From assembly GCA_016218825.1 (NCBI GenBank), contig JACRCV010000091.1, positions 1 to 64,000 of the forward strand: a stretch of 64,000 nt of DNA. The letters run 5' to 3'. Below, in pieces: positions 37,638-43,357 of the stretch. Made by a program: the position numbers and the translations under genes. Positions within the stretch are counted from its first letter, which is position 1, and each line of letters opens with the position of its first letter. The stretch comes from Deltaproteobacteria bacterium (GTDB lineage: Bacteria > Myxococcota > XYA12-FULL-58-9). The notes under the pieces were generated by a model, which was given only the letters and a program-made list of their open reading frames with translations, did no database searches and was not told the origin of the DNA.

Positions 37638-40016
37638 ATGCCGACCACCATCGACCCCGTCACCGGCGCGACCGTTGTCACCGGCCCGACGCCGGCGGCG
37701 CCTGCGCGCGTGGATCCGAACGCCGGCACCACTGCCCCGCAACAACCGGCGAGCCCCACCGACGCGTTCGCGGCCGGCGGCACGTTCACTCCGCCGCCAC
37801 CCGCGCCCGGGGCCCCGACGCCGCTCGGCACCTTCGGCACCGACAACGTGGTGGTCGACGCTCAAGGCCGCCTGGGTTTGGGCACGGTGTCGTTGACGCC
37901 GAACGACCAGATCAAGGCGGTGCGCGCCGCGATGCTCCAGGCCCCGAGCCAACAACCGTTCGCGAGCGTCACCGACCCCGCGCTGCTCACCCGCATCGGC
38001 GACGCCGGCAAGGCGTTGTTCAAGACCTGCCTGCGCACCCCGAAGAACGACGGCGACGCGCTGCAGCTTCGCCTCGGCCGGGCCTCGGCGCTGGCGCTCA
38101 TCGAGGCGGTGGGACGTCGCTTGACGGCGCTCGGCAACGCGCCGCTCGCGGCGAAGGTCGCGAAGAGCCTGACCGCCACCGTCGCCGCCGAGCCGCATCC
38201 GGCGCTGAAGCGCTTCGCCTACCAGAGCTACCTGAACCGCGCCAAGGCGGGTGAGCTGCCGGCGAACGCCCGTTTGGGCGAGACCCTCTATCCGACGAAG
38301 CCGCCCTACAAGGAGTGGCTCAAGGACGACAAGATCAAGGTCGTCTACTACACCGACAACAACGGCAGCCCGCGCGCCGACCACGTGCAGATGCTGAAGG
38401 ACTGGGGCTTCACCGGCGTCGACAACCCCGACGGCACCACGACCTTGACGTTGAAAGAGCCGGGCGCGAACACCATCGAGGTCCTGCTGCAGCCGGCGCC
38501 CGCGGTCGACACCCCGCCGGCGCTCTTCGAGCACATGAACACCCCCGACGCCGACATCATCGTCTACTGCGGCCACGCCGGCTACGGACGGCGCGTCGAC
38601 CAGGCGGTGGCCGCCGGCGTCGACGGCTCCGGCAAGGGCAAGCTGGTGGTGCTGTTGCAGTGCTACGGCGAAGGCAACATCGAGTCGGTGTCGCGCGCCT
38701 ATCCCGAGTCGCAGCTGATCTCCACCCGCCGCGCCAGCGACGACAACCTCGACCAGAACCTCCTCTCCGGGGTGCTGTTCGGGGCGGCGAACGGCGAGGG
38801 CTACGTCAAGATGCGCAAGACCACCCTCGACGAGTTCAAGCAGATGGCGAAAGACGATCCGACGGTGGACGAGTACGACACCTTCCCGATCGAGACCCAC
38901 TACTTCTTCCCGAACGACGTCGACATCGTCGCGCCGAAGACCGACCTCGACAAGGACGGCGTCCCCGACGTCCAGGACTCGATCTTCAACGTGGTGTTCC
39001 CGAAGTGCGTCGACGCCGCCGGCGGCTTCGATCCGCTCGACATCGGCGCCCCCAAGGACGGCCTGGACGGCACCGCGTTGAACGCCGCGACCGCCAACGC
39101 CAACCACGTGGCGCGCTACGCCGTGTTCCCCGACGCCCTCACCTCGCGGCTCGCGGGCGCGGTGCCGTGGAACCCGGAGACCTTCGTGTCGGCCGGTTAC
39201 TTCGACCCGGCCCAAGACGAGATGCGCGCCTTCAAGCTCGAGGTCGACCCGACGACCCGGCACATCCGGGTGTCGCTGTCGACCCGCTACGCCCACACCC
39301 CGGAGCTCGCGCTGTCGCGGATGCTGGCGATCGAGGCGGCGCTGTTCGTCGGCGAGCGAGCACAGCTCGCGAACAACGAGCGCGCGGCGCTGGCGCTGTC
39401 GTTCTTGGAGCGCGTCGTGCATCAACAGGCGGCGGCGGCGAACGAGACCGACAGCGACCTGTTGGCGCGCACCTCGGCGCAGGAGCGCCTGCTGGGCAAG
39501 CGCTACTCGATCCCGATGAGCGTCGCCGAGCTCAAGGCCCTCTCCGGCAACCCCGACGACTTCGTCGCCGCCACCTACGACGCCATCCTCGCGAAGGTCG
39601 CGAGCACCCCGGCGCTCTCTGGCATCGCCACCGCGACCCCGGTGAAGACGATGCGCACCCTGCGAGTGCCGGCCGACGTCCCGTTCCAGGGCAGCCTGCA
39701 CCCGCTCACCGTGACGCAGCTCATGAACCGTCTCGGGGTCCAGGGGACGCTGCAGGCGAACAGCACCATCTGGGCGCCGTATCGCGGCGGCCGGGTGTAC
39801 GTCCCGATGAACGACCCCGCCGGCAAGCCGCTCACCGTGGTGTTAGCGGTCGACAGCGGCGGCATGCTGCGGGCCGCGAGCGTGATGGACACGCCGCCAC
39901 CGGCGACTCCGGCGACTCCGACGACTCCGACGACTCCGGCGACTCCGGCGACTCCGGCAGCTCCGGCAGCTCCGGCAGCTCCAGCCGCGCCAGCGGGACC
40001 CGCCGCTCCGGTCTAG
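37638..40016 (+). CDS. Caspase-fold-like (clan CD) cysteine peptidase candidate
   Basis: This 792-residue protein has no signal peptide; AGGAG lies 5 nt before the ATG. The first 65 residues are Pro/Thr/Ala-rich. In the middle, DADIIVYCGHAGYG (His313) is followed 29 residues later by KLVVLLQCYGEGN (Cys342); a hydrophobic strand ending in a Gly-flanked His and a second strand ending in a Cys is the catalytic dyad layout of clan CD peptidases (caspases, gingipain, CHAT). Then DLDKDGVPDVQDS (436-448) is a calcium-type Asp loop. The tail (from ~752) is Pro-Ala-Thr repeats. The stop shares CTAG with the convergent Tgl-like gene. The peptidase call rests on this motif only; no family was matched directly. 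Confidence 0.6.
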   Translation: MPTTIDPVTGATVVTGPTPAAPARVDPNAGTTAPQQPASPTDAFAAGGTFTPPPPAPGAPTPLGTFGTDNVVVDAQGRLGLGTVSLTPNDQIKAVRAAMLQAPSQQPFASVTDPALLTRIGDAGKALFKTCLRTPKNDGDALQLRLGRASALALIEAVGRRLTALGNAPLAAKVAKSLTATVAAEPHPALKRFAYQSYLNRAKAGELPANARLGETLYPTKPPYKEWLKDDKIKVVYYTDNNGSPRADHVQMLKDWGFTGVDNPDGTTTLTLKEPGANTIEVLLQPAPAVDTPPALFEHMNTPDADIIVYCGHAGYGRRVDQAVAAGVDGSGKGKLVVLLQCYGEGNIESVSRAYPESQLISTRRASDDNLDQNLLSGVLFGAANGEGYVKMRKTTLDEFKQMAKDDPTVDEYDTFPIETHYFFPNDVDIVAPKTDLDKDGVPDVQDSIFNVVFPKCVDAAGGFDPLDIGAPKDGLDGTALNAATANANHVARYAVFPDALTSRLAGAVPWNPETFVSAGYFDPAQDEMRAFKLEVDPTTRHIRVSLSTRYAHTPELALSRMLAIEAALFVGERAQLANNERAALALSFLERVVHQQAAAANETDSDLLARTSAQERLLGKRYSIPMSVAELKALSGNPDDFVAATYDAILAKVASTPALSGIATATPVKTMRTLRVPADVPFQGSLHPLTVTQLMNRLGVQGTLQANSTIWAPYRGGRVYVPMNDPAGKPLTVVLAVDSGGMLRAASVMDTPPPATPATPTTPTTPATPATPAAPAAPAAPAAPAGPAAPV
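39900..39980 (+). repeat. Nine tandem copies of a 9-nt repeat
   Basis: The unit is CCGGCGACT with CCGACGACT and CCGGCAGCT variants, in phase with the reading frame and encoding Pro-Ala-Thr, Pro-Thr-Thr and Pro-Ala-Ala. It makes the flexible C-terminal tail of the caspase-like protein. Copy number could vary by slippage without breaking the frame. Confidence 0.85.
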
Positions 40017-42055
40017 CGGCCCGGCAGGCGTCGGGTGCTGCCGTTCTCACCGACGACGAGCGCGGCCCCGATCGGCCGTACCGCCGTCAGCGCCTGGGTG
40101 ACGTCGTGAAGTAGCCCGAGGTAGGCGCCGTTCTTCGTCGTCGTGCCAGCCATGTGGATCGCCGCGACCTGTCCGTGGACCCCGGCGAGCAGCGCCTCAA
40201 GGAGCTCGCGGGTCTCGTGGTCGTAGCGCTCGCGCTCGGCGTCGAGGTTCAGCGTGCTCTCCCTGGTGCCACCGTCGTGGGCGTTCTGCAGAGTATCCTT
40301 GCGCTTCTGGACGCTCGCGTCGATCCGCGCCCGAATCGCCTTGAGCTCCACCTTGATCGCCTCGAGCTTCGATTTGCTGGCGGCGTCGATCGGCGGCGAC
40401 GCCGGCGCACCAGCGCCGGCCGGTGTCGGGCCGAGCGCGAGATCGATCGCGTTGAGGGCCGCATCCAGTTGCGGCGCGCTCTCGACCTCGACCTCGAAGC
40501 GGTGGCTGTTCAAGCACGCGAGGATGCTCTTCTCGGTCGTGATCCCAAACGGATGGCCGTAGTACAAATGATCGCCACGCTTGTAGCCTGGGCCGTCTCT
40601 GCGGGCCTTGCCGAGATCGATGACGTTCTCGCCCGACCAGCCCATCGCTTCACCCTTCAGGCTGACCGCGGCGTTGTAGAAATATCGATAGTCGCCGGGC
40701 ATCGCGCCGAACTGCTTCGACCAAGTGTCGAGCCGCTCCTTGGCGCCGTCTTCGTCGCCGACCCATTCGCCGCCCTGATCGACGATCGTGCCGATCTCCA
40801 TGCCGGCGAAGCGCGCGTCAAAGCGCCGATCGGCGTCCGGACCGAACTTCGCCTGGTAGTAGCGATACTCCGCCACCTTCCAAAAGACAGCGATGCCGGT
40901 CGCACACTCGAACTTGTACTTCTCCGGGTGCGCGAGCATGTCCTTGATGGCAGCGCTGGCGCTCTTGCCCGACTTGAGCTTGTACGAATGGTCGCGGAGC
41001 TCGAAGAGCTCGGCGTTGGCGGTTGGCTTGCCGACCTGGAACGCGAACTTCGACCGCCCCTTGGCGCCCACCAGATCCGCGGCCGCCTGCTGCGAGGCTT
41101 TCGCGAAGATCAGCTGGTCGGCGAGCGTCGGATCGACGGCTTGGAGCACCACGACCTCGCCGAGCTTCATCGTCACCAAATCGCCGCCGTTCAGCTGCTT
41201 GTTCTTGTCGCTGTCGACGACCACGACCTTCATCTTGTCGAGCGCCGCGATGCCGTCCTTCAGCACCGCGAGCCGGTCGGCAGAGTTGGCGGCGTCGGCC
41301 TTGGCGACGACAGCGACGAACGCCGCGCGATACGGCTCGCTCATCGTCTGCGCCAGCGCCGCGACACCGTCGTCGAGCAGGCCGGCGTTTGCGAGCGCGG
41401 TCGCGAGCGCGGCGAAGCTCTCGGCGTGGCCAACGAGCGCGAGGTCGGCGGCGGTCACGTCGGGCCGCGACGCGAGATGCTCCGCGAGCACGGTCGTGGT
41501 CTCATTCAACACCCGGCTCTGGACATAGAACGCGTAGTTCGCCGAGTGGCTCGCGAGCGGCGAGCCGAACGCCTTGGCCAGCTGGGTCACCTGGCCCTGA
41601 TCCAGCTTGTGGATCGTCGTGCCGCCCACCCCGACCCCGAGCTCACCGAGGATGGTGCGACGGGCTTGGAGCAACGCGGCGTCGGGGGCCAGACCCTTTG
41701 CGACGTAGTAGCCCTGCACGGCGTCGAGCGCGTCCTTGATCTCGGTTCCTTGCAGGACGCCGTCACGACCGGCTGCGATCTGCAGCGCAACCTTGCTGAC
41801 CGACACACCGCCGTCCGGGGCCTTGAGCGCCGGCAGCATGGTCTTGAGCAAGGTCGGCGCGAGCTTGAGCGTCGCGGCCGCGGGGGTCGACTCGATGACG
41901 TCGTGGATCGCCTTGAGCTCCGCGGAACTGAGCTCGACCTTGGCCTGCTTCGCCTCGCGCAGCGCCCCGAGAAGAGTGGCGTCGCTGAGCTTGTTCGCCG
42001 CCGCGAGCGTCGTCACCCGGGCGCGAAGGTCGTCGAAGCTCGAGATCGTGGTCAT
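40013..42055 (-). CDS. Protein with Bacillus Tgl-type transglutaminase domain
   Basis: This 680-residue protein has no signal peptide. Residues ~335-520 match the small spore-coat transglutaminase Tgl in order and spacing: LKSGKSASAAIKDML, FECATGIAVFWK (Cys384 nucleophile preceded by Glu383), RFDARFAG, then MGWSGENVIDLG (Glu476) and YYGHPFGIT-x-EKSILACLN. Tgl crosslinks Gln and Lys side chains. DSDKNKQLNGGD (281-292) is an EF-hand-like loop. The N-terminal 330 residues are helical and unrecognised; residues ~525-640 are coiled and basic, and the final 40 contain a predicted short strand region. The start is the ATG at 42055. It faces the caspase-like gene, sharing the CTAG at the stops. Sporulation genes are absent nearby. 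Confidence 0.72.
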   Translation of the reverse strand: MTTISSFDDLRARVTTLAAANKLSDATLLGALREAKQAKVELSSAELKAIHDVIESTPAAATLKLAPTLLKTMLPALKAPDGGVSVSKVALQIAAGRDGVLQGTEIKDALDAVQGYYVAKGLAPDAALLQARRTILGELGVGVGGTTIHKLDQGQVTQLAKAFGSPLASHSANYAFYVQSRVLNETTTVLAEHLASRPDVTAADLALVGHAESFAALATALANAGLLDDGVAALAQTMSEPYRAAFVAVVAKADAANSADRLAVLKDGIAALDKMKVVVVDSDKNKQLNGGDLVTMKLGEVVVLQAVDPTLADQLIFAKASQQAAADLVGAKGRSKFAFQVGKPTANAELFELRDHSYKLKSGKSASAAIKDMLAHPEKYKFECATGIAVFWKVAEYRYYQAKFGPDADRRFDARFAGMEIGTIVDQGGEWVGDEDGAKERLDTWSKQFGAMPGDYRYFYNAAVSLKGEAMGWSGENVIDLGKARRDGPGYKRGDHLYYGHPFGITTEKSILACLNSHRFEVEVESAPQLDAALNAIDLALGPTPAGAGAPASPPIDAASKSKLEAIKVELKAIRARIDASVQKRKDTLQNAHDGGTRESTLNLDAERERYDHETRELLEALLAGVHGQVAAIHMAGTTTKNGAYLGLLHDVTQALTAVRPIGAALVVGENGSTRRLPGR

Positions 42056-42130: not shown

Positions 42131-43357
42131 CTACCGTCTCGGGTGCGGGTGCGAGGCCTTGTCTTCGTACATCTTGGCGTCGGCGCTCGCGAGCAGCTCG
42201 TTGAGGCTCACCGGCGCGGCCGGATTGAAGACGACCACGCCGACGCTGAAGCACAACCGCCATGGCGCCCGCTCGCGGACGACGATCTCCTCGGCGCGCT
42301 CGTGCAGCGCCGCCCGGGCCGCGGCGACGCCGTCGGCGCCGGTCTCCGGCAAGAGCGCCGCGAACTCGTCGCCCCCGAGCCGCGCCAGGATGTCGGAGGC
42401 GCGAAACGCCGTCGACATGACCTTGCCCGCCTGGCGCAGCGCGTCGTCCCCGGCGCGATGGCCATAGCGATCGTTGATGCTCTTCAACCCGTCGAGATCG
42501 GCGAACAAGAGCAGCATCGGCCGGTGGCTGCGCTCGGCGAGGCGGAGTTGGCGCTCGGCGAGCAGCAGGAAGCCGCGGCGGTTGTGCAGGCCGGTCAGCG
42601 GATCTTCGAGCGCCAGCTCCTCGAGGTGTTGGGCGTGCCGCATCTCCTTGCGATAGCCGCGGGCGACGACGATGGCGAGCACGACCCCGAGCACCCAGAG
42701 GATCGCGGTCGCCAGCAGCCGGGTGCGGGTGAAGGCCCGCCGCGCCAGGACCACGTCGGCGGCCGGTAACGTGATGCTGGTGCCGCCCCGCAGATCGCCG
42801 ACCGCGTAGTCTCGCGAGCAGTGACAGTTCCTACAGCTCGGCTCGACCCGCACCGGCGCCATGTAGCGAAACAGGTCGGTCCCCGAGGAGTCGACGATGA
42901 ACGCGGCGTACTCGGTGCTGCCGGCGGCGAGCGCCGCGAGCGCTTGGTGCTCCCAGGCGTCGATGTAAGAGTCCGGTCGGACCGGCTCCTCGCTCGTGAG
43001 CCGGAGCTCGATGCCGTAGCGGGCCGAGATCTCGCCCAGCTGGCGGATCATGTAGGACGGGTTGATCATCGTCAGGTGTCGGCCGTCGACGGCGACCAGA
43101 TCGCGGCGCTCCGGATCCAACAACGGGTTCGGCGGCGCGCCCGGTGACAGCTCGACGTAGACCCCGCCGTGGGAAGCGTTCCAGCTGCGGGCGTCGGCGA
43201 GCAGCCGCGCCAGCGCCCGGGCCTGACCGACCGCGACCGCGAAGATCTTCTCCCGCTCCAGCCGGTCTTCGAAGTAGTACGCCGCGCCCAGAAAGACGGT
43301 CCACACCGCAACCGCAACGGCGCCGAGCAGATACGGTCGCTGGAGCCCTAGACGCAC
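42131..43357 (-). CDS. Membrane diguanylate cyclase with c-heme-binding DUF3365-type sensor
   Basis: From a GTG at 43357 the 408-residue protein has one N-terminal transmembrane helix (8-28), a periplasmic domain of the DUF3365/Tll0287-like type ending with CRNCH (a CxxCH covalent heme site) near residue 180, a second helix (LLATAILWVLGVVLAIVVA), then a cytosolic GGDEF domain with intact LGGDEF, DLDGLKSINDRYGH and an RASD inhibitory-site equivalent. It should make c-di-GMP in response to redox state, oxygen or a heme ligand. A c-heme lipoprotein gene lies 67 nt upstream on the same strand, so the two probably form an operon. Confidence 0.88.
   Translation of the reverse strand: MRLGLQRPYLLGAVAVAVWTVFLGAAYYFEDRLEREKIFAVAVGQARALARLLADARSWNASHGGVYVELSPGAPPNPLLDPERRDLVAVDGRHLTMINPSYMIRQLGEISARYGIELRLTSEEPVRPDSYIDAWEHQALAALAAGSTEYAAFIVDSSGTDLFRYMAPVRVEPSCRNCHCSRDYAVGDLRGGTSITLPAADVVLARRAFTRTRLLATAILWVLGVVLAIVVARGYRKEMRHAQHLEELALEDPLTGLHNRRGFLLLAERQLRLAERSHRPMLLLFADLDGLKSINDRYGHRAGDDALRQAGKVMSTAFRASDILARLGGDEFAALLPETGADGVAAARAALHERAEEIVVRERAPWRLCFSVGVVVFNPAAPVSLNELLASADAKMYEDKASHPHPRR

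Follow-up and report, generated by a model that had tools for sequence, protein, structure and literature searches.

Clan CD of the cysteine peptidases, which includes C14 (caspases, metacaspases and orthocaspases), C25 (gingipains) and CHAT, is characterized by a His-then-Cys dyad, each residue following a beta-strand, and by a GH...C motif. Further marks of the clan are the caspase sheet order 2-1-3-4-5-6 and a peptidase activity of strict P1 specificity. The placement of the dyad after successive core strands serves as a criterion of the clan (PMC4357240). In the spore-coat transglutaminase Tgl of Bacillus subtilis (PF20085), the key residues are Glu115, Cys116, Glu187 and His200 (PMC6490927). 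Calcium loops of the Dx[DN]xDG type are found in EF-hand, thrombospondin type 3 and dockerin modules, with a strong bias towards proteins that are secreted or exposed at the surface (PMC3123361).

The window analysed here, a stretch of 64,000 nucleotides, carries two convergent genes, P0001 and P0002, whose products resemble these systems in part. We consider it likely that they encode two unrelated stand-alone enzymes, a clan-CD-like and probably calcium-binding cysteine peptidase and a Tgl-type transglutaminase, with the genes ending against each other. This account was built on the observed gene structure, conservation, profile similarity, Tgl residues and missing pairing elsewhere; catalysis, calcium binding, substrates and cellular site of the two proteins are predictions. 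The features of the pair and of P0001 are as follows.

37638 to 40016, forward strand: P0001, 792 residues, clan-CD-like putative cysteine peptidase of an undescribed family
37638 to 37817, forward strand: Pro/Ala/Thr-rich N-terminus, residues 1-60, predicted to be disordered (pLDDT about 30-60)
37899 to 38246, forward strand: helical region before the peptidase core, residues 88-203 (AlphaFold2 model)
38286 to 38987, forward strand: alpha/beta peptidase-like core with the calcium-type loop, residues 217-450 (AlphaFold2 core model and 47-member alignment)
38574 to 38576, forward strand: codon of His313, predicted to be catalytic (conserved in 47/47)
38661 to 38663, forward strand: codon of Cys342, predicted nucleophile (conserved in 47/47)
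38943 to 38978, forward strand: DxDxDGxxDxxD calcium-type loop, residues 436-447 (46/47 relatives)
39888 to 40013, forward strand: Pro/Ala/Thr-rich low-complexity C-terminal tail of P0001 (sequence, low pLDDT)
40013 to 40016, both strands: CTAG, common to both stop codons (sequence)
40013 to 42055, reverse strand: P0002, 680 residues, with a Tgl-type transglutaminase core

The third-position GC contents of P0001 and P0002 were 0.93 and 0.89, respectively, and both genes are clearly coding. The two convergent reading frames, their stop codons overlapping in CTAG and the numbering of His313, Cys342 and Cys384 were all found as the initial annotation had described them. Its statement that both proteins lack a signal peptide agreed with a reading by eye, in which neither N-terminus looked Sec-like.

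The P0001 family and its putative clan CD core

P0001 had no match above the cut-off in Pfam, NCBIfam, PADLOC or PHROGs, and no match in plasmids and phages; a scan of the genome collection with P0001 alone as the query found nothing. In a profile search with E<1e-25, the family was located at 76 places in 36 of the 195 genomes of the phylum, Myxococcota as judged by named relatives, and the genome of the window itself holds six copies by sequence and seven by profile. Since these copies of one genome were spread over several clades of the family tree, the family is old and diverse rather than recently expanded. The named relatives came from Myxococcota or Deltaproteobacteria metagenome-assembled genomes, together with one Planctomycetota record and one titled Candidatus Hydrogenedens. 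The aligned members shared only about 20-54% identity with P0001. Judged by these sequences, P0001 belongs to a divergent, undescribed and mainly myxococcotal family of multidomain proteins.

When 30 family members were scanned for known domains, three of them matched PF01483, the P domain of proprotein convertases, which is typical of secreted proteases (best E=2.3e-20). P0001 matched neither Peptidase C14 (PF00656) nor Peptidase C25 (PF01364), and the list of 13 families obtained for the scanned members included neither. A P-domain-like stretch was observed in the N-terminal regions of the members L016 and L037. Moreover, in L017:1219-3597 and about 21 other members the core is preceded by an N-terminal helical domain of approximately 65 residues (LxxxLAxDGxLxxxDvxxLlxxAxxdGxlSxxEkxxLrxil), which some members carry in a doubled form of about 130 residues. 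P0001 lacks this domain, for which the libraries gave no name.

The initial annotation had assigned P0001 a clan CD dyad of His313 and Cys342. In the alignment, both residues were invariant in all 47 family members, as were G312 and G317. The AlphaFold2 models of the whole protein (pLDDT 81, pTM 0.81) and of the core (pLDDT 91, pTM 0.89) both placed a strand at residues 307-311, followed by GH313, and a strand at residues 336-340, followed by C342. In the predicted secondary structure, the dyad thus lies at the C-terminal ends of the successive core strands beta3 and beta4, as clan CD requires. The family profile was furthermore compared with those of known clan members by HHalign. Against the C14 orthocaspases of the same genomes the score was 32.8 (shuffle maximum 18.0), with His aligned to His and Cys to Cys; against the gingipain-type C25 it was 28.3 (shuffle maximum 18.2), with His aligned. 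The CHAT profile was aligned correctly at a score of 15.7, which was not above the shuffles (maximum 16.9), and the alpha/beta-hydrolase control scored 19.9 and was aligned elsewhere. The known clan members scored 42-63 against one another, above the links of the P0001 family to C14 and C25.

Nevertheless, P0001 differs from the described clan members in several respects. It lacks a Pfam or NCBIfam match, has N-terminal helical and C-terminal regions of its own, carries a fused invariant DxDxDGxxDxxD loop, and spaces its His and Cys by 29 residues, shorter than MARTX-CPD (49) and PmC11 (46). Moreover, none of the 50 PDB matches that Foldseek listed for either the whole or the core model had a caspase fold; they were weak and GTPase- or nucleosidase-like (TM <= 0.49). 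No viral structure model was matched at E<=0.001. The dyad pattern and its predicted placement were borne out. The profile likeness exceeded the shuffles for C14 and C25 but not for CHAT, and the caspase fold expected of the AlphaFold models was absent from the listed matches. Because no caspase was present among these top 50 matches, we regard P0001 as a probable rather than a proven member of clan CD, as judged from profiles and models.

The generic alpha/beta folds matched by Foldseek and the missing Pfam peptidase match would also suit an alpha/beta (Rossmann-like) protein belonging to a different class of enzymes, in which the invariant His and Cys serve other chemistry. That P0001 is not a peptidase seems rather unlikely to us, given the order of the dyad, its strand-end position and the in-register profile alignment to C14 and C25. 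A GTPase-like P0001 is unlikely; small GTPases were the top Foldseek matches, but the P-loop-like GSGKGK is not kept in the family. Two other candidates were also rejected. An alpha/beta-hydrolase elbow (GHSxxG) looks similar, but 13 of the 47 members, among them P0001, have Ala in place of its Ser; the Gly residues are also wrongly spaced, and the hydrolase control profile was aligned elsewhere. A rhodanese match in the Pfam scan of the pair (E=0.087) was below the cut-off.

As a clan CD peptidase, P0001 would use His313 to activate Cys342 for attack on the peptide bond, with the two residues placed where successive beta-strands end. We tentatively suggest, at less than even confidence, that the family is a separate undescribed clan CD family with the fused calcium loop as a switch, of which Myxococcota keep up to seven stand-alone copies for lysis, predation or development.

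The calcium-type loop and the cellular site of P0001

Residues 436-447 of P0001 fit the pattern DxDxDGxxDxxD, and this loop was kept in 46 of the 47 family members. It is single and attached to the peptidase-like domain, and neither an EF-hand nor a thrombospondin type 3 domain was found, in which P0001 differs from the described Dx[DN]xDG loops. The initial annotation had proposed calcium-type Asp loops in both proteins; the one in P0001 was well supported by its relatives, whereas the one in P0002 was weaker and degenerate, with Lys for the usual Gly. Since the motif is conserved, P0001 probably binds calcium. The Asp loop adjoining the dyad domain would then bind the ion and probably stabilise or switch on the domain.

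Such loops reside mostly in secreted or surface proteins (PMC3123361), and with the P domain in three of the 30 scanned relatives this would be consistent with a calcium-switched protease of the same chemistry that leaves the cell by a non-Sec route and works extracellularly or in prey. This refinement of the two-enzyme account is possible but doubtful, because a Sec-type signal was not seen in P0001 by eye and no secretion gene recurred beside the family members.

The Tgl-type transglutaminase P0002

The features of P0002 are as follows.

40460 to 41056, reverse strand: TGL domain PF20085, residues 334-532 (E=3.7e-21, 75.9 bits against a cut-off of 23.7)
40553 to 40555, reverse strand: codon of His501 (Tgl His200), invariant
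40628 to 40630, reverse strand: codon of Glu476 (Tgl Glu187), invariant
40904 to 40906, reverse strand: codon of Cys384 (Tgl Cys116), preceded by Glu383; Cys invariant
41180 to 41215, reverse strand: degenerate calcium-type loop DSDKNKQLNGGD, residues 281-292 (alignment of relatives)

The Bacillus Tgl-type core with Cys384 that had been read in P0002 was confirmed by the Pfam TGL match and by the intact catalytic residues. Glu115, Cys116, Glu187 and His200 of Tgl correspond to Glu383, Cys384, Glu476 (followed by Asn477) and His501 of P0002, so that the catalytic core is complete. Cys384, Glu476 and His501 were invariant among 14 relatives, and the position of Glu383 was occupied by Glu or Asp. 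Among solved transglutaminases, P0002 matched 7c9j (E=4.8e-9) and 4p8i (E=0.0086). These similarities argue strongly for a Tgl-type transglutaminase, which would use Cys384 to crosslink Gln and Lys. The score against the NCBIfam equivalog was 65 bits, far below the cut-off of 307, and P0002 is therefore a member of the domain family rather than a demonstrated orthologue.

In comparison with B. subtilis Tgl, P0002 has about 330 extra N-terminal and 150 extra C-terminal residues. The long, unassigned and putatively helical N-terminus gave one weak library match, to phrog_26962 of unknown function (E=0.018), and no other. A domain common to this N-terminus and the P0001 family was considered and rejected; P0002 ranked 53rd of 7142 reading frames at E about 100, which is not significant. 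In the loop at residues 281-292, D281 was invariant and D292 nearly so, and the loop was degenerate in short relatives. Two tandem Tgl-type genes, each with a full DxDxNGxIxxxD loop, were observed at L047 of the genome G050. Matches to P0002 were present in 13 of the 195 genomes of the phylum, i.e. the transglutaminase is rare.

Relationship between the two genes

The initial annotation had viewed the pair as an undescribed unit of a protease and a protein crosslinker. When 45 neighbourhoods of P0001-family members, reaching as far as about 10 kb to either side and in some cases truncated by contig ends, were searched with the TGL profile, no TGL gene was found (0/45), nor was one found in five further named neighbourhoods (0/5). 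In these 50 neighbourhoods the homologues thus never lay beside a transglutaminase gene, which contradicts a conserved unit. Matches to both proteins were also present in 11 other genomes; they were on different contigs in all but one of these, where they lay 353 kb apart on one contig. The adjacency of P0001 and P0002 is private to the genome of the window as far as the data go, although a few cases might be concealed by breaks in the assemblies.

The CTAG overlap is itself unremarkable: a rough gene call of the window gave nine convergent pairs, and in seven of these the two genes terminate no more than 70 bp apart. Such closeness is normal there. As the genes are convergent, they share no promoter. 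No conserved neighbour was convincing around the family members either, the recurrent clusters being reading-frame shadows or common families, and PADLOC gave no anti-phage defence match for P0001 or P0002.

A rival reading is an effector or self-defence pair, newly assembled in this lineage, in which both enzymes act on the same substrates. We regard such a unit as very improbable: the overlapping stops, the acidic calcium-type loops in both proteins and the lack of visible export signals in either would suit it, but the pair was missing from every other genome searched, no defence library matched, and convergent genes often end this close together in the window. Chance is the most likely cause of the pairing.

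Some other neighbours were also observed. The gene upstream of P0001 (35815-37548) encodes a beta-lactamase fold and an fn3 domain, with a C-terminal tail resembling the MYXO-CTERM sorting signal. A GGDEF gene with a Tll0287-like sensor (42131-43357) lies 75 bp upstream of P0002 on the same strand; GGDEF genes also adjoin two other family members (L012 and L077), possibly because such genes are common. A further member is adjoined on the same strand by a gene whose product carries the metalloprotease motif GHEVGH, of the HExxH type (L065:6847-7554), and a similar gene is found near another (L064:15623-16315).

With P0001 and P0002 taken as two unrelated enzymes, P0002 extends the Tgl-type enzymes beyond spore-forming Bacillus, and a link to P0001 is not implied. 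Should P0001 indeed be a peptidase, a large number of caspase-like proteases with an integral calcium loop would be present in Myxococcota without annotation, missing from Pfam and NCBIfam, and these would be concrete candidates for roles in the lysis, predation or development of multicellular bacteria.
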